Below, one piece after another: positions 7,490 to 51,467 of a DNA stretch of 51,467 nt; positions within the stretch are counted from its first letter, which is position 1; every line of letters starts with the position of its first letter. The stretch is from assembly GCA_012516125.1 (NCBI GenBank), contig JAAYXB010000010.1, positions 79,984-131,450 of the forward strand. The letters are read 5' to 3'. The notes below the pieces were generated by a model. It was not told where the DNA came from. It made no database searches and saw only the letters and a program-made list of their open reading frames with translations. The position numbers were made by a program, and so were the translations under genes. This stretch comes from Bacillota bacterium. GTDB lineage: Bacteria > Bacillota > SHA-98 > UBA4971.

Positions 7490-8211
7490 CTCGCGTCAGG
7501 GCCAGCAAAATCCCCGACCCCTCCGAGGGCGCCCGCACCCGTGCCGTCGCTGCCGGCGCTGCCGGCGCTGCCAGCGCCAGCGCCAGCTCTAGCTCTAGCT
7601 CCAGCTCCAGCTCCAGCTCCAGTGCCTGTGGTCCCGGGATCGTCGCCCCGCTCCGGCCCCCGGAGCCTCGCGGCCGCCACCTCGATGGCCCTGATTATCT
7701 TGGCGTAGCCGGTGCACCTGCAAAGGTTGCCCGATATCGCCTGCCGGATCTCATCCTTCGTCGGGGACAGGTTGGCATCGAGCAAGGCCTTCGCGGACAT
7801 GATCATCCCCGGTGTGCAGAACCCGCACTGCACGGCACCTTCGGTCACGAACGCTTCCTGGATCGGGTGAAGGCTGCCATCACGCTCCAGGCCCTCGATG
7901 GTCACCACCCGCTTCCCGTCCGCCTGGTAGGCCAGCATCAGGCACGAATTCACCGGCTTCCCGTCGACGAGCACCGTGCACGCCCCGCACTCGCCCTTAC
8001 CGCACCCTTCCTTCGTGCCGGTGAGGCCCAGGTCCTCGCGCAGGAACTCAAGCAAGGTGCGCGTTGCAGGAACCTCGGCCCGGACGGTGCGGCCATTCAC
8101 CCACATATCCACACTAAACGTCCCCCTGGACGTCACCCCGGACGTCTCCCTGGGCCCGAAGGCGCTCGCCGCGCCCTCACCAGCACCCACGGGACCGCAA
8201 CACTCGCTCAC
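7486..8211 (-). CDS. Molybdenum hydroxylase 2Fe-2S subunit with Gly/Ala-rich tail
   Basis: This is the small iron-sulfur subunit of a xanthine-dehydrogenase/CO-dehydrogenase-type enzyme. The plant-type cluster uses Cys70, 75, 78 and 90 (CGKGECGAC), and the second cluster uses Cys129, 132, 164 and 166 (CGFC and CRC). The core spans about residues 33-183 and matches the family. The extra tail of about 52 residues (190-241) is almost entirely Gly, Ala, Ser and Thr, encoded by GCx/GGx hexamer repeats at about 7520-7640. GTG start at 8211 has GGAGGG 13 bases upstream, rather far, so a slightly different start is possible. E. coli calls this subunit XdhC, which differs from the maturation factor of the same name. 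Confidence 0.92.
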   Translation of the reverse strand: MSECCGPVGAGEGAASAFGPRETSGVTSRGTFSVDMWVNGRTVRAEVPATRTLLEFLREDLGLTGTKEGCGKGECGACTVLVDGKPVNSCLMLAYQADGKRVVTIEGLERDGSLHPIQEAFVTEGAVQCGFCTPGMIMSAKALLDANLSPTKDEIRQAISGNLCRCTGYAKIIRAIEVAAARLRGPERGDDPGTTGTGAGAGAGARARAGAGAGSAGSAGSDGTGAGALGGVGDFAGPDAR

Positions 8212-43774: not shown

Positions 43775-45622
43775 CTACTCGAGTAGAAACTGCACGGCGA
43801 GCGTCCGCGTCCAGCGGACCTGGGATCCGTCGTCCTCGCGGGCCCTTTGGCCCTCCTGGGCCGCCGGCCCCGGCTCCGGCTCTCCCCGCTCGCTCCATAT
43901 AAGCGCGGGCTCACCTTCGTCTGTCTGCACAAGACCAGGGTTGAGCGTGACGAGCGGCGCATCGGGGTCGTCCGGGCCCAACTCGGATGCCGCCGCAAGG
44001 TCCTGCTCCTCCGCTGGGGCAATCTCACGTAGAGGTGGCCGGCCCGGGGGTCCGGGTACACGCTCCACCGTCGCTGCCGGCGCAGGTGCCGGCGCAGGTG
44101 CAGGTGCAGGTGCAGGTGCGGGCACGGGCATGGGTACAGGCGTATCCGCGGGCGGAGCTACAGGCGCCGGCGCAGGCGTGGGTGCGGACGGGGGTGTGGA
44201 CGGGGGCGCGGTTGCAGCTCCGGGAACGGGTGTAAGTACGGACTCCGGCACCGTCACTGGTGGTGGCACCGGGGCCGGAGCTGCAGCTGGGCCTAGAGCT
44301 GGAGCTGGAGCTGGAGCTGGAGCAGCTGGCGGCGATGGTACCGCCTTTTCGGCCCGCACCTCCTGCGCGGTCGGAGCCGGACGCGTCGAGATTGCGAGCC
44401 TAAGGGCTTGCGGATCCCAGTTGATGAGCACTGTAAGGAAGATCCGTTGTAGATCATCAAGAGGCACATGGGCCCTGCCGGCCACGACGACGCAGCGCAC
44501 GGGCACCCCGCCGACGATGGCCAGGCGGCGCGCCTGGTCCCAGTGGACGTAGCATTTCAACGCATCGGCGACGGGACGCACGGCCACCAGCACGTTCCCC
44601 GCAGCGTCAATTCGCACCGCGTCCGCCGGGAGGGGGCAGCCGTCCACCTCGACGCGAGGCTTCCACGGCACAGGCTCCGGCCTGCCGCTGGCAGCCGCCA
44701 CGATTGCTCCGAGAGCGTCTTCGTCCACGTCGGGCGCGGGCCACGGCAGTGCCGCCTCCAGCGCCGCGACGGCAGCTTCAAGAGTGTTGACGCCACGCTC
44801 GTAGATGTCCCTGTAGACCGTGATGCGTGCCCCGAGAAACCCTGGCCGCCCGTCCCCCGGGCGGACCTCGATGGTCCGGTACACGAACTCGACCTGCGTC
44901 CCGACGGGCACGATGTCGTAGAGTTCCCTCGCGTCCTCGTCGCGCATCCGGATGCAGCCCAGGCTAACCGCCTTGCCGATGGATGCAGGGTTGTTGGTCC
45001 CGTGAATGCCGTACCCGGGCCAGCTCAAGCCCATCCACCGCGACCCGACCGGGTTGTCGGGCCCCGGCGGCACGGGTGGACGGCCGTCGGGCGGGAACCA
45101 GGTGGGGTTCTTCGCTTTGTGAACGATGGTACACGTCCCGATACGGCTCGGCGAAACGGCTTTTCCCACGGCTATAGGGTACTCTTTCACCAACTCATCG
45201 CTGCGGAAGAGGGAGAGGCGATACGCCGGGATGTTGATCACTATCCTGTAGTCTCCTTGGCCCGTTCCATGTCGTCCGCCAGGCACAGCGCCTATCCCGG
45301 CAGCCTGGCCCTGCAGCGCGCGTGCGGCCTCCGCGTCGTCGCTGCCGATGCCGCTGTCGACGCCGACGCCGCTAGAGATCTGCGCCGAGTCCAAGGTCGA
45401 ACCCGGAGTCTTGGCTGCTGCCGAGACCGAGGCAGAGTCGGAGGCCAAGACCGAGACCGAAACCGATACTGGGACCGGGACCGAGACCGGGAGCGGGACC
45501 GGGAGCGGGACCGGAACCGCGACCGAGGCCCGCGACCCGGAAAATCCAACTTCCTGAAAGAACACAAAAGGCGCGATGCCGAGCGCCACACACAGCCACA
45601 GCACACATGTTCTCCGACGCAC
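43775..45622 (-). CDS. L,D-transpeptidase (YkuD) with repeat-rich linkers and a copper-amine-oxidase-like domain
   Basis: This 615-residue secreted protein has a signal peptide (VLWLCVALGIAPFVFF), then a Val/Pro/Ser dipeptide tract (about 35-65). The YkuD catalytic domain spans about 125-260, with HGTNNPASIGKAVSLGCIRM carrying the catalytic His and Cys. It forms or exchanges L,D cross-links in peptidoglycan. A domain like the N-terminal copper-amine-oxidase fold (AVRPVADALKCYVHWDQARR) follows near 345-420. A long Pro/Ala/Val tract (about 430-545) comes next, then a short tail. GTG at 45622 follows AGGAGGG. The low-complexity parts are encoded by GGTGCA/GGAGCT-type hexamer repeats. Confidence 0.9.
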   Translation of the reverse strand: MRRRTCVLWLCVALGIAPFVFFQEVGFSGSRASVAVPVPLPVPLPVSVPVPVSVSVSVLASDSASVSAAAKTPGSTLDSAQISSGVGVDSGIGSDDAEAARALQGQAAGIGAVPGGRHGTGQGDYRIVINIPAYRLSLFRSDELVKEYPIAVGKAVSPSRIGTCTIVHKAKNPTWFPPDGRPPVPPGPDNPVGSRWMGLSWPGYGIHGTNNPASIGKAVSLGCIRMRDEDARELYDIVPVGTQVEFVYRTIEVRPGDGRPGFLGARITVYRDIYERGVNTLEAAVAALEAALPWPAPDVDEDALGAIVAAASGRPEPVPWKPRVEVDGCPLPADAVRIDAAGNVLVAVRPVADALKCYVHWDQARRLAIVGGVPVRCVVVAGRAHVPLDDLQRIFLTVLINWDPQALRLAISTRPAPTAQEVRAEKAVPSPPAAPAPAPAPALGPAAAPAPVPPPVTVPESVLTPVPGAATAPPSTPPSAPTPAPAPVAPPADTPVPMPVPAPAPAPAPAPAPAPAATVERVPGPPGRPPLREIAPAEEQDLAAASELGPDDPDAPLVTLNPGLVQTDEGEPALIWSERGEPEPGPAAQEGQRAREDDGSQVRWTRTLAVQFLLE

Positions 45623-45859: not shown

Positions 45860-46876
45860 CTAGAGTACCTTCTCGCCCAGCGGCTTCTCAAGCAGCGCCA
45901 CGATGAGCTTGACGGCGTTCTCGATATCGTCAATATCCGCCATTTCCGACGGGGTGTGCAAGTACCTGGTAGGGATAGAGATCGCCCCAGAAGGGACGCC
46001 CTCCCTCGTGAGATGGATCGGCCCCGTGTCGGTGCCGCCGTGCTCCAGCACCTCCAGCTGGTATGGGATCCCCTTCTCCTTCGCCGTCTCCACCATCAAC
46101 TGGCGGACGCGCGGGTGGGCTATCACAGACGAGTCCTTCACCTTGATGGCGGGCCCCTTGCCGAGGCTGACCGCCATCGGGTGCGCCTCCGGCGTGTCGC
46201 CGGTCCCCGTCACGTCCACCGCTATGCCGATGTCTGGATTGACGCCGTACGCCGCGGTCTTGGCCCCGCGCGTACCAAGCTCCTCTTGCACCGAAAAGAC
46301 TACGTACACCTGGTTCGGTATGTCCCGCCCCTTGAGCTCCTTCAGCACCTGGACGAGCACGGCGCACCCTGAGCGGTCATCGAGGGATTTCGCGATGATG
46401 CGACCGCCGCCGTCCACGCGTGCGTCTCGCTGGAAGCCCGCGATGTCGCCGACGGAAACTTTCTCCTTCGCGGACTTCTCGTCAGTCGCGCCGATGTCGA
46501 TGAACATCTTCCCAAGCTTCAGGTCCTTGATGTCATCGAGTTTCTCGGTGCCGAACGTCCCCACGGTGCCGTTCTCGAACACGACCCTCTCGCCGAGAAG
46601 CACGTAGGGTGAGACCCCTCCGATGTTCGAGAACCTCACAAACCCCTTCTCGTCGATGTGGGTCGCGATGACCCCGATCTCGTCCATGTGCGCCGCGAGC
46701 AGCACGCGCGGGCCTGCGCCTGCTGCCTTTCGGACCACGATGAGGTTCCCGAGCGCGTCCACCTTGACCTCGTCGGCGAACCCCTCCACCTCCTTGCGGA
46801 GGATCTCCCGCACGGGACCCTCGTTGCCCGACGGGCCATACGCCTCAAGCAGCTTCTTCAGAAGTTCCTTCAACAC
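45860..46876 (-). CDS. M42 family aminopeptidase, copy 1 (third in operon)
   Basis: This 338-residue protein is a dinuclear-metal M42 glutamyl aminopeptidase/cellulase-M-like enzyme. Metal ligands and catalytic residues are in LLAAHMDEIGVIA, DDRSGCAVLV, QEELGTRGA (catalytic Glu), and HGGTDTGPIHL. M42 enzymes form large tetrahedral complexes that trim peptides in the cytoplasm. Its GTG overlaps the end of the preceding paralogue by seven bases. It is the last of three tandem paralogues, each sharing motif order but clearly diverged in sequence. Confidence 0.92.
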   Translation of the reverse strand: MLKELLKKLLEAYGPSGNEGPVREILRKEVEGFADEVKVDALGNLIVVRKAAGAGPRVLLAAHMDEIGVIATHIDEKGFVRFSNIGGVSPYVLLGERVVFENGTVGTFGTEKLDDIKDLKLGKMFIDIGATDEKSAKEKVSVGDIAGFQRDARVDGGGRIIAKSLDDRSGCAVLVQVLKELKGRDIPNQVYVVFSVQEELGTRGAKTAAYGVNPDIGIAVDVTGTGDTPEAHPMAVSLGKGPAIKVKDSSVIAHPRVRQLMVETAKEKGIPYQLEVLEHGGTDTGPIHLTREGVPSGAISIPTRYLHTPSEMADIDDIENAVKLIVALLEKPLGEKVL

Positions 46877-47904
46877 GGCAGCCCCCTCTCGTCAATGCTG
46901 TCCAGAAACGCACTTACAAGCGCGAGTGTGTGCTCGAAGTCCTGCTTGTCGATGATTGAAACCGGCGAGTGGATATACCTGGTGGGGACGGACACCACCG
47001 CAGCCGGGATGCCCTCCCGGATGAGGTGTATCCTGCCCGCGTCGGTGCCGCCGACGGCAAGTTCCCTGAACTGGAACGGGATGCCCCGCGCCTCCGCGAC
47101 CTCCACCAGGCGCCGGACTATCCGCATGTCCGCTACGAGGCTCGCGTCGGTGCGAGTGAGGGCCGGGCCTTTCCCGAGGCGGGTGGAATACTGGTGCTCC
47201 TTCGACCCGGGGACGTCGGACGCCGTCGTGCCCTCCAGCGCGATAGCAAGGTTGGGCCCGAGCCTGTAGGCGGCCACCTGCGCGCCGCGCGCCCCTACCT
47301 CTTCCTGCACGGTGAACACCGCCTGCAGCGTGAACCCCCAACGCCGGTCCTTGGCGAGGAGTTCGGCGATGATGGCGCACCCGACCCTGTCGTCGAAGGC
47401 CTTGGCCTTGGCGCGACCAGACCCGATCTCCGCGTACTGCGTCGCGAACACCACGCCGTCCCCGAGCTTGACTAGTTTCTCCGCCTCGTCCTTATCCTTG
47501 GCGCCGATGTCGATGTACAGGCCCTCGAGTTCGAAGGGCCTGTCAGCCTCGTCGCGCTTCTGAAGATGGATGGGCTTCGCCCCGATGACCCCAGGGATGC
47601 GGTCTCTGCCGACCAGGACCTGCTTGGACACGAGGACACGCGGGTCAATGCCGCCGACAGGGTAGAACCGCAGCACCCCTGACTTCTCGATGTACGTGAC
47701 CATGAGGCCGATCTCGTCCATGTGCGCGGCAAGCATGACCTTCGGGCCGTCCTTGGAAGTGCCGCGCTTGATGGCGATGAGATTTCCGATGGAGTCGGTC
47801 TCGATTTCGTCGCAGTGAGGACGGACGTGGTCACGCAAGATATCGCGGACCTCGTGTTCCTGCCCAGGCACGCCGAAAGCCTCGGTGAGGGCCTTTAGAA
47901 GCAT
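46870..47904 (-). CDS. M42 family aminopeptidase, copy 2 (second in operon)
   Basis: This 344-residue paralogue has the M42 motifs MLAAHMDEIGLMVTYIEKSG, FDDRVGCAIIAELL, QEEVGARGAQVA and VGGTDAGRIHLIREGIP. ATG at 47904 follows GGAGGG and overlaps the first gene's end by ten bases. Specificity within M42 (leucyl-, lysyl-, or glutamyl-aminopeptidase) cannot be read from sequence alone; three diverged paralogues suggest complementary specificities or a mixed complex. Confidence 0.92.
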   Translation of the reverse strand: MLLKALTEAFGVPGQEHEVRDILRDHVRPHCDEIETDSIGNLIAIKRGTSKDGPKVMLAAHMDEIGLMVTYIEKSGVLRFYPVGGIDPRVLVSKQVLVGRDRIPGVIGAKPIHLQKRDEADRPFELEGLYIDIGAKDKDEAEKLVKLGDGVVFATQYAEIGSGRAKAKAFDDRVGCAIIAELLAKDRRWGFTLQAVFTVQEEVGARGAQVAAYRLGPNLAIALEGTTASDVPGSKEHQYSTRLGKGPALTRTDASLVADMRIVRRLVEVAEARGIPFQFRELAVGGTDAGRIHLIREGIPAAVVSVPTRYIHSPVSIIDKQDFEHTLALVSAFLDSIDERGLPC

Positions 47905-48959
47905 GTCAATCCCTCCACAAACTTCTTGTCGAGCCGCACGATGAACTCCGCCAGCAGCCTCCCGGCCTTCTTTATGTCGGCGAGCGACACGGTCTCCACG
48001 GCGGTGTGCATGTAGCGCAGCGGGATGGAAATGAGAGCCGAAGGGATGCCGCCGCGGGTGACCTGAATCGCGAAGGCGTCGGTACCTCCGGGGTGCGGGC
48101 TTGGCTCCACCTGCACGCCGATGTCGAGATCATCGGCGATCTCCTTGAGCCTCGCGAAGATGGCCGGGTGGACCTGCGGCCCGAAAGCTATCGCCGGGCC
48201 CTTCCCGAGGGTAAGCGTGTCGTATTCGGGGACCCCGAGCATGTCGCCGTGCCCGACGTCGATGGCGATACCGATGTCGGGGACGATGCCGTAGGTGCTC
48301 GTGATGGCGCCGCGAAGGCCAACCTCCTCCTGGACGGTCGCGACGCAATAGACGTCCGCGTGATGACGCGTGTTCGCGAGCACCTTCAGGCACTCGAACA
48401 TCACGGCGACGCCCGCCCTGTCATCCATGGCCTTACCCGCCATCAGCTGGCCTTTGAGGCGCGTGGGCCTCGCGGCGAAGGTAGCGGTGTCGCCGACCTC
48501 CACGAGTTCACGAGCCTCCTCGGCGGTGAGGCCAACGTCGATGAAGAGGTCCTCCCACTTCACGGACTTCTTCCGCTCGTCGGGCTCCTGCACGTGGGGT
48601 GGCTTGGCGCCGACCACCCCAGGGAGGTCGCGGCGGCCGTGGACGACGACCTCGAGACCGGGGAGAATGCGCCTGTCAATGCCGCCGACCTCCGTGACGC
48701 GCAGGCACCCTTCATCTTCGATCTTGGTGACCATCAGGCCGATCTCGTCCATGTGGGCGGCCAGCATCACGCGAGGATGCGGGGCGCGCCCCATGCCGCG
48801 CTTGAGCAGAATGAGGTTTCCGAGAGCGTCGTGGCGGGCCTCGTCGAAGATCCCGGACATCTGCCCCTTCGCGACCTCGGCAACCTCGCGCTCGTGGCCC
48901 GAAACGCCGGCCTCCGAGAGCAGACCGGCCAGAAAGTCAGCCAGATCCCGTGTTGCCAT
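47895..48959 (-). CDS. M42 family aminopeptidase, copy 3 (first in operon)
   Basis: This 354-residue paralogue starts MATRDLADFLAGLLSEAGVS and has MLAAHMDEIGLMVTKIEDEG, MDDRAGVAVMFECL, QEEVGLRGAITS and HPGGTDAFAIQVTRGG. ATG at 48959 with GGAGG seven bases upstream is preferred to a longer frame to 49067 that would enter repeat copy F. It is the first gene of the three-gene peptidase operon. Confidence 0.92.
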   Translation of the reverse strand: MATRDLADFLAGLLSEAGVSGHEREVAEVAKGQMSGIFDEARHDALGNLILLKRGMGRAPHPRVMLAAHMDEIGLMVTKIEDEGCLRVTEVGGIDRRILPGLEVVVHGRRDLPGVVGAKPPHVQEPDERKKSVKWEDLFIDVGLTAEEARELVEVGDTATFAARPTRLKGQLMAGKAMDDRAGVAVMFECLKVLANTRHHADVYCVATVQEEVGLRGAITSTYGIVPDIGIAIDVGHGDMLGVPEYDTLTLGKGPAIAFGPQVHPAIFARLKEIADDLDIGVQVEPSPHPGGTDAFAIQVTRGGIPSALISIPLRYMHTAVETVSLADIKKAGRLLAEFIVRLDKKFVEGLTCF

Positions 48960-49030
48960 GACCACTCCTCCAATCACGTAACCTGCCTGGACTAAATGTG
49001 AGTTCGAGAATAGCCGTCGCCTATCCAGGG

Positions 49031-49108
49031 TCGCCGGTGTTGCACTCTCTCTTTGAGTCACCGGCAACCCCTCCCAAAAGTCGGGAGCGTTTCGGCACTC
49101 TCACCCAG
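49031..49108. repeat. Nested-palindrome intergenic element, copy F (left-truncated)
   Basis: The core 49033-49069 is identical over 37 bases to copy C, followed by the CTCCC/GGGAG hairpin and a diverged right end GCACTCTCACCCAG (49095-49108). The left terminal repeat is missing. It lies 72 bases upstream of the first M42 gene and may carry or precede its promoter. Confidence 0.8.
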
Positions 49109-49800: not shown

Positions 49801-50274
49801 TTGGTGAAGTGGGGCGTGAGTAGGGTAATGGGGGCACCCGCTGGCATGGCCGAGAATGCGTGGGAACACGAGGTCGCAGAGTGCCTGGCACGCCATCCGA
49901 AAGTTGTCCTGGCCTTCCTATTCGGGTCGTTTTCGAAGGGCAGGTCCAGGGCGGGCTCTGACGTGGACGTGGACGTGGACGTGGACGTCTACCTCACGCC
50001 GCCCTATTCCACTAATGATGTTTCCGAAATCTGGAGCCGTCTTGAGGACATCACCCATCGCGACGTCGATCTGCTGGTGCTCAACACGGCACCCCCGATC
50101 ATATCGTGGACAGCGATGAAGGGGAAGGTCCTTGTCGATAAGGACCCAAAGCTACACCTGGAACTTACGCTCGAAAGGTCGCGTGAGGCCGAGGATTTCC
50201 ACGAGTTCCTGATGGACTTCTGGCACGAGAGAAGGCGTCGCCGGAGGGATAACGATGCTCAGACTCTCGACTGA
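49801..50274 (+). CDS. Nucleotidyltransferase-domain protein with expanded DV repeat in the active site
   Basis: This 157-residue protein has the minimal nucleotidyltransferase motif FLFGSFSKGRSRAGSDVD, followed by a run of five Asp-Val pairs (residues 54-63) where family members have one or two. The run is encoded by five 6-bp GACGTG/GACGTC units (49960-49989). The third catalytic Asp region is HRDVDLLVLN. Such proteins AMPylate or pair with HEPN partners. TTG at 49801 or GTG at 49804 lies six to nine bases after AGGAG. A short overlapping frame follows, perhaps the stub of the partner gene. Confidence 0.8.
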   Translation: MVKWGVSRVMGAPAGMAENAWEHEVAECLARHPKVVLAFLFGSFSKGRSRAGSDVDVDVDVDVYLTPPYSTNDVSEIWSRLEDITHRDVDLLVLNTAPPIISWTAMKGKVLVDKDPKLHLELTLERSREAEDFHEFLMDFWHERRRRRRDNDAQTLD

Positions 50275-50362
50275 ACAGGTAGAGGGCATTGCGCGGAGAG
50301 TGGACTTCACGAGGGTCGAAAAAGCAGGCCGTGCCCCCACTTGCCCCGAGGCTCAGTCGTGA
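50255..50362 (+). pseudogene. Short ORF after the nucleotidyltransferase, possible truncated partner gene
   Basis: ATG at 50255 is preceded by a strong GGAGGG at six-base spacing and opens a 35-codon frame (MLRLSTEQVEGIARRVDF...) that overlaps the end of the nucleotidyltransferase gene. The overlap and strong site are how MNT/HEPN-type partner genes start, but the frame ends after 35 residues and resembles no complete family. I read it as the decayed 5' end of a partner gene; a genuine small protein is the alternative. Confidence 0.4.
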
Positions 50363-50462: not shown

Positions 50463-50550
50463 GCCGAAGTGGCGGAACTGGCAGACGCACGCGACTCAAA
50501 ATCGCGCGGAGTGACCCTCCATGGGGGTTCGATTCCCCCCTTCGGCACCA
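50463..50550 (+). tRNA. tRNA-Leu (anticodon CAA)
   Basis: The acceptor arms GCCGAAG (50463-50469) and CTTCGGC (50540-50546) pair, followed by A and encoded CCA (50548-50550). The anticodon stem CGCGA/TCGCG encloses loop CTCAAAA, giving anticodon CAA, which reads UUG. A long variable arm (GAGTGACCCTCCAT) fits class II tRNA-Leu, and the T arm is GGGGG-TTCGATT-CCCCC. Confidence 0.97.
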
Positions 50551-50586
50551 ACTTTTTAGGCAGAATTGGTCAAACAGGCATTTAGG

Positions 50587-50619
50587 CAGTGAGCAGGACT
50601 TTTGCGGTCCTGCTCACTG
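50587..50619 (+). terminator. Long hairpin downstream of tRNA-Leu(CAA)
   Basis: A perfect 13-bp stem, CAGTGAGCAGGAC (50587-50599) with GTCCTGCTCACTG (50607-50619), has loop TTTTGCG. It may terminate or process the tRNA transcript; no T-run follows (TCGCTTATG). A direct repeat of TTTAGGCAG lies between tRNA and hairpin (about 50555 and 50581). Confidence 0.5.
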
Positions 50620-50725
50620 TCGCTTATGACGCCGTTGTCCCCCTCGAAATCGGAAATTGGTCACAAAATGGTCACCGCTGCCAGAGCCGTTATCCTGCAA
50701 ACTCAGGGTAGAACCTGGATGCAAA

Positions 50726-50754
50726 ATGGCCAGTCCCTTGAGAGGACTGGCCAT
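50726..50754 (-). terminator. Intrinsic terminator of the XRE regulator gene
   Basis: A perfect 11-bp stem, ATGGCCAGTCC (50726-50736) with GGACTGGCCAT (50744-50754), is followed on the minus strand by TTTTGC. It begins 18 bases after the regulator's stop codon. Confidence 0.8.
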
Positions 50755-50772
50755 GACAGTCCTATACGGGGG

Positions 50773-51111
50773 TCAGTTGCTTTGAAAGATGTCCTCCACC
50801 TTGCACTGCAAAGCCTTGGCCAGTTTTAACGCCACGCTCACCCGCGGGTCCCGCCACTGCCCGAGCTCGAGCATCGATATCGCCCGGTGCGAATAGCCGA
50901 CCATCCGGCCGAGCTCGGTCTGAGACAGCCCCAACGCAAGGCGCCGCTCGCGGATCCGATTGCCGACCGTCTCCGCTCTGTCCTCCGGAACCCCCGCTTC
51001 CCGCAGAGCCTCGGTCCAGGATGGGAAATACTTTCGGGCTATGGCCTCCATAACCCGATCGTGCCGGCCCGCCCGGATCGCTTCGAGTACCTTGCTGCGT
51101 GACCAATTCAC
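50773..51111 (-). CDS. XRE-family HTH regulator with an N-terminal WxxxALRxAG-type repeat
   Basis: This 112-residue protein has a C-terminal XRE helix-turn-helix (RIRERRLALGLSQTELGRMV... ISMLELGQ, about residues 50-110). The N-terminal 45 residues (NWSRSKVLEAIRAG and FPSWTEALREAGV) resemble the short repeat found beside HNH homing endonucleases and in some regulators. Its target is unknown; no phage or restriction genes are nearby. It starts with GTG at 51111, with only a weak GAGG upstream. A good terminator follows. Confidence 0.85.
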   Translation of the reverse strand: MNWSRSKVLEAIRAGRHDRVMEAIARKYFPSWTEALREAGVPEDRAETVGNRIRERRLALGLSQTELGRMVGYSHRAISMLELGQWRDPRVSVALKLAKALQCKVEDIFQSN

Positions 51112-51467
51112 TGTGCATCGGGCCTCATCAGCAGCGCAGGACCTCAGCCAACCTCAGCTCGACGCTCTCACGCTCCGCTAATCCCGTCATAATTGAATGT
51201 AACGCCAACTATCAACAGGGTATGGTGACATTCTGCAAAGTGGGTTCAGAAGGTCCACAGGTTGTGATAATCTTGAAGCCAAAGGGAGTCGATCATATGT
51301 TTTGGGGAGCGCATTAGGCTCCTCTGTGTCGGCGCCGGTGCGATCTGACGTTGATGTAGGCGGGATTTCCGGTGGAAGGTGGCATACCTCCGGGACCCCC
51401 TTGGGGATGGGGTGGTGACCGGGGGTGTTGTTTTGCCTGGGTGGTAGCAGGATAGCTGCGAGTGGCG
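51112..51467. other. Right-end region without a recognised gene
   Basis: No supported coding region or RNA is visible. Sequence upstream of the XRE gene (51180-51300) is less GC-rich and may contain its promoter, but no consensus pair stands out. The last 100 bases are G/T-rich and could be the start of a feature outside the window. Confidence 0.4.

Follow-up and report, generated by a model that had tools for sequence, protein, structure and literature searches.

The MntA-like gene and its hexanucleotide array

Near the end of the window (the whole stretch of 51,467 nucleotides analysed here), the ORF list, Pfam, and Foldseek identify an MntA-like minimal nucleotidyltransferase ORF on the forward strand at 49801-50274. 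The ORF encodes 157 aa if read from the TTG at 49801 and 142 aa if read from the ATG at 49846, with the stop at 50274 in both cases, and it is the ATG that matches the start of the orthologues in the alignment. Because the sequence AAGGAGG found upstream of the aligned ATG in one relative (G003) is replaced by AATGGGGG in the window genome (G000) and in its closest relative (G004), the true start in G000 is uncertain. The first-pass annotation had recognized the gene as a nucleotidyltransferase, and this identification is supported by scores above cut-off for two Pfam families, Polbeta PF18765 (61 bits; cut-off 26.9) and NTP_transf_2 PF01909 (28 bits; cut-off 21), which place the product among the minimal nucleotidyltransferases of the NTP_transf_2/Polbeta clan. 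Specifically, in a phmmer search of the PDB the short-form orthologue from G004 matched the S. oneidensis MntA antitoxin (5yep/7bxo, E 2.5e-6), and the best Foldseek matches of AlphaFold models of the long and short forms were the MntA chains of the MntA-HepT complex (7bxo, 6m6u), with TM scores of 0.80-0.82 by target length. PADLOC returned nothing beyond weak, uninformative matches to candidate families containing nucleotidyltransferases. The closest known system is the type VII MntA-HepT (HEPN-MNT) module of S. oneidensis (SO_3165/SO_3166; PDB 7bxo, 6m6u, 5yep), with which the window gene shares a nucleotidyltransferase that has GSX10DXD by literal spacing, and the predicted MntA fold. Modules of this type are further characterized by the adenylylation of a HepT Tyr by MntA.

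In frame within this ORF lies a hexanucleotide array at 49960-49989 (+), which reads (GACGTG)4GACGTC in the context tct (GACGTG)4 GACGTC tac and codes for residues D39-V48 in S-DVDVDVDVDV-YL. Tandem Repeats Finder reports a perfect period-6 array of GACGTG x4.8 at 49960-49988; together with the sequence itself this confirms the five GACGTG/GACGTC units originally annotated, and the accompanying statement that six-base units keep the frame also holds for this ORF. No other perfect period-6 run in the window is as long as this 29-bp array, and because the maximum run in order-2 Markov simulations of the window (n=200) was 17 bp, we ruled out a chance run as its origin. Given Asp-Val repeats in the protein, runs of GAC GTG are fairly likely from codon bias alone (joint codon probability ~0.02). 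The array is not unique in the genome, where perfect period-6 runs recur: a 311 kb sample contained nine runs of at least 22 bp, of which four lie in the window and two reach 29 bp. Separately, the ORF at 43778-45622 (-) carries hexanucleotide and longer arrays at 44082-44119, 44277-44323, and 45421-45541; it has a low-complexity linker region with a raised dN/dS relative to G004 (0.43).

Array length and the catalytic motif

The closest orthologue, with 95% protein identity, is that of G004 (Bacillota MAG-64, record JACIXY010000001), which belongs to the same genus. At the position where the window reads SDVDVDVDVDVYL, G004 reads GACGTG GACGTG GCCGTC (SDVDVAVYL), G003 and G001 read GACGTG GACGTG GCTGTC, and the G016 protein reads SDLDIAVYL. 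Because homologues already have two GACGTG units and then GCCGTC or GCTGTC, only two units are extra in the window, and the derived change in its gene consists of 12 additional bp, equal to two units or four residues, and the replacement of Ala (GCC) by Asp (GAC), for which the minimal history is one 12-bp insertion of two units and one C-to-A change. Thus, the insertion of additional Asp-Val pairs proposed in the first-pass annotation is real, but the extra units number two rather than four or five.

The repeat-number comparison covers four orthologues (G004, G001, G003, and G016; one genome per species), and the expansion is present in the window genome only; paralogues aligned from that genome also have no expansion, and a scan of genome contigs returned the G004 locus only. 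Across 31 aligned homologues, the four-residue insertion is unmatched, and more than 90% of them have Ala at the position that is Asp in the window. We also considered homologues with naturally long Asp-Val tracts and rejected them: there was none among the 31, and a search of 398 genomes from the phylum with the pattern FG[ST]-X-DxDxDxD matched the window gene and, as a low-complexity false match, G154. The canonical pattern FG[ST]..[S]DxDx was present in 313 genomes of this set, a count that includes some chance matches as judged by a reversed control. Homologues of the same length had been named, along with a repeat number fixed across strains, as the finding that refutes a repeat-number switch; the homologues are shorter, so this part of the refutation fails.

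The array directly follows G27-S28-X10 and hence overlaps the GSX10DXD catalytic signature (49924-49968, +; G27-S28 ... D39-x-D41 by literal spacing, from sequence and alignment), in agreement with its earlier placement at the metal-binding DxD. In S. oneidensis MntA, GSX10DXD binds two Mg ions and the phosphates of ATP through S28, S38, D39, and D41, together with D71, and D39E/D41E or changes in GS abolish modification of HepT (PMC7641770). Because the array of the window gene is in frame and exactly at the DxD, it could alter catalysis. The window protein retains a literal GSX10DXD (G27 S28 X10 D39 x D41), and AlphaFold places the register four residues later, with the strand at 44-50 versus 40-46 in G004, although the gap placement in the AlphaFold input alignment favours this later register and makes the model weak evidence on the point. 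Because the signature overlaps the array, D43/D45 could replace D39/D41. If D39/D41 were used, the strand would have to absorb four residues; if D43/D45 were used, the loop would be four residues longer and Ser38 would no longer precede the first Asp. Residues 36-39 of the catalytic loop have a pLDDT below 50 in the window protein with no such segment in G004, and the mean pLDDT is 82 and 86, respectively. In either register, the expansion likely weakens or abolishes adenylyltransferase activity.

The HepT remnant and the order of events

In G001, G003, and G016, the MntA gene is followed in an operon by an overlapping, intact HepT gene of 146-151 aa, which is the order of genes in the MntA-HepT module. 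The intact HepT contains RNILAHQY, which fits the RX4HXY motif of HEPN RNases, and matches PF01934 with 66 and 73 bits; the HepT proteins of G001 and G003 are 99-100% identical to each other. In contrast to this module, the window has a HepT stub, next to an MntA gene in which the DxD strand region is four residues longer and carries the Ala to Asp change. Both G000 and G004 lack the same ~513 bp of HepT, leaving a stub of ~25 codons before a tRNA-Leu gene. In the window, the remnant of this HEPN toxin gene lies at 50255-50362 (+) and consists of approximately the first 25 codons and, past the junction, unrelated codons up to a stop, as seen in the frame +1 translation compared with G001, G003, and G016; it begins with the HepT N-terminus, MLRLSTEQVEGIARRVDFTRVEKAG, and then breaks off, has no Pfam match, and is all that is present in place of an adjacent HEPN toxin with RX4HXY. 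The deletion junction is at 50328-50334 based on a junction alignment and on BLAST collinearity, in which window positions 50329/50334 correspond to 16397/16910 in G001 and 12816/13330 in G003 (stretch coordinates) with both flanks collinear. The remnant and the junction are identical in G000 and G004; in G004 the start ATG of the remnant is now ACG.

M42-type peptidase genes upstream and the tRNA-Leu (CAA) gene downstream (50463-50550, +; ARAGORN), a conserved landmark that aligns with G004, G001, and G003, identify this as the same locus in the relatives. In the remaining part of the window (50551-51467), the alignment with G004 ends past tRNA-Leu(CAA) and that with G001 continues to ~50663, so that an insertion may be present at this tRNA gene in G004. 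An HTH_3 regulator is encoded at 50773-51111 (-), near the contig end.

A cognate HepT is absent from the rest of G000 and G004; the nearest HepT proteins are ~43-44% identical and come from other pairs, and each of the six HepT genes of G000 adjoins its own nucleotidyltransferase gene. Near-identical MntA-HepT pairs occur in the first 2 kb of G000 contigs C6 (L023) and C70 (L032) and are probably part of a repeated element. Because the junction is common to G000 and G004, the HepT deletion predates the split of the two lineages; the expansion is found in G000 only. By parsimony, the most likely order is that the toxin was lost first and that the repeat in the antitoxin gene expanded afterwards.

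We also considered that the extra 12 bp, or a chimaeric junction, could be artefacts of a metagenome-assembled genome and not present in the organism. The close relative is a MAG, which the window genome with its 98 contigs resembles, the locus is ~1.5 kb from a contig end, and the estimated contamination is 4%. However, ordinary reads easily span a 29-bp array, a substitution (GCC to GAC) accompanies the extra units, both flanks are collinear with G004 across tens of kilobases, and the HepT deletion is seen in two genomes independently. We, therefore, regard an assembly artefact as highly improbable.

Selection on the orphan gene and interpretation of the array

Outside the insertion, the nucleotidyltransferase genes of G000 and G004 differ by six nonsynonymous and seven synonymous codon changes, corresponding to a dN/dS of 0.25, compared with 0.06-0.09 for the neighbouring conserved peptidase genes (45863-46891, 46873-48129, and 47898-49100). 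When G003 and G001 are used to polarize the differences, three amino-acid replacements, Ala to Asp among them, and a single clear synonymous substitution fall on the window lineage; all these counts are small. Neither G000 nor G004 has a stop or frameshift in the ORF. Judged from these substitutions, constraint on the orphan gene is weaker than on its neighbours, which does not prove a dead gene. Because dN/dS is likewise about 0.25-0.33 when the orthologue of G001 or G003 is compared, the data do not demonstrate that the gene evolved faster once the toxin was lost.

The open frame and the dN/dS of 0.25 would also fit retained activity of the orphan enzyme, directed in trans at a HepT from a different pair or at a new target, with the altered loop as an adaptation. 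Paralogous HepT proteins ~44% identical to the lost one are available at C6 and C70, and the model keeps the MntA fold. However, these HepT proteins have nucleotidyltransferases of their own next to them, the expansion alters a motif, including the >90%-conserved Ala, that is otherwise invariant in the 31 aligned homologues, and the lost partner is the sole parallel to G004. On balance, we consider activity in trans unlikely. We give even less credence to a version in which the orphaned MntA is retained while repeat number reshapes its active site, yielding an adjustable adenylyltransferase for a HepT elsewhere or for a new target.

A perfect five-unit array slips more readily than the ancestral two units, and the first-pass annotation had read the array as a contingency-like switch whose repeat number could vary and could tune or abolish catalysis. 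In such a rheostat, slippage would vary the repeat number within the population. Simple-sequence contingency loci are recognized by a perfect tandem repeat inside a coding region or close to one, and the perfect 29-bp array, which lies in frame at a catalytic motif, is such a repeat. A precedent exists in the GCTGGC repeat of mutL in Salmonella and E. coli, likewise an in-frame 6-bp tandem repeat at a functional site with copy-number changes by slippage, where three units (wild type) are functional and two are not, so that loss of one unit inactivates MutL (PMC2955026). Unlike mutL, which changes within populations with a selectable phenotype, the window array is one known allele and its partner gene is gone. 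Also, several repeat lengths among close relatives, the other hallmark of such loci, were not found: all four orthologues have two units and only the window has five, with no intermediate lengths, and no toxin remains at the locus to control. Moreover, the array at 7597-7622 in the window, a CCAGCT-type hexanucleotide, exceeds its G004 counterpart by 12 bp as well (two further window arrays have the same length in G004), and a change in array length is, therefore, not special to the MntA gene. MutS and MutL are encoded in the genome, with no sign of a general mismatch-repair deficiency, which is thus unsupported as the cause of the expansion. Taken together, the lack of a range of copy numbers, the HepT deletion in both G000 and G004, and the 12-bp difference in another array speak against the proposed switch, which we consider very unlikely.

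Our working hypothesis, and quite probably the correct one, is that the GACGTG array is a slippage expansion in an MntA gene that had been orphaned by an earlier HepT deletion, and that it is tolerated under relaxed constraint. In this scenario, the HepT partner of the type VII antitoxin MntA was deleted in the common ancestor of G000 and G004; slippage, the presumed mechanism, would then have converted GACGTG GACGTG GCCGTC to GACGTG x4 GACGTC; and damage to the adenylyltransferase site would cost little or nothing without a toxin at the locus, allowing the expansion to persist because no toxin is left there to neutralise. The array, its absence in the relatives, the common HepT deletion, and the parsimony order of events are shown by the data; we infer slippage as the mechanism, reduced or lost activity, and relaxed selection as the cause of this persistence. 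Against decay of the gene stand the open frame in both G000 and G004, a dN/dS that is above that of the neighbours but below the neutral value of 1, and the predicted fold of the window protein, which is still MntA-like. Thus, the orphan MntA may remain expressed and partly constrained, e.g. by acting in trans on another HepT.

We suggest that the locus represents a small, well-ordered example of possible toxin-antitoxin decay, in which the toxin is lost first and the catalytic motif of the antitoxin follows. It also cautions against equating a repeat that lies in frame within an active site with a switch before the partner gene and the relatives have been checked. The orthologous loci with an intact HepT in G001, G003, and G016 are ready controls for how far the GSX10DXD loop can be lengthened.
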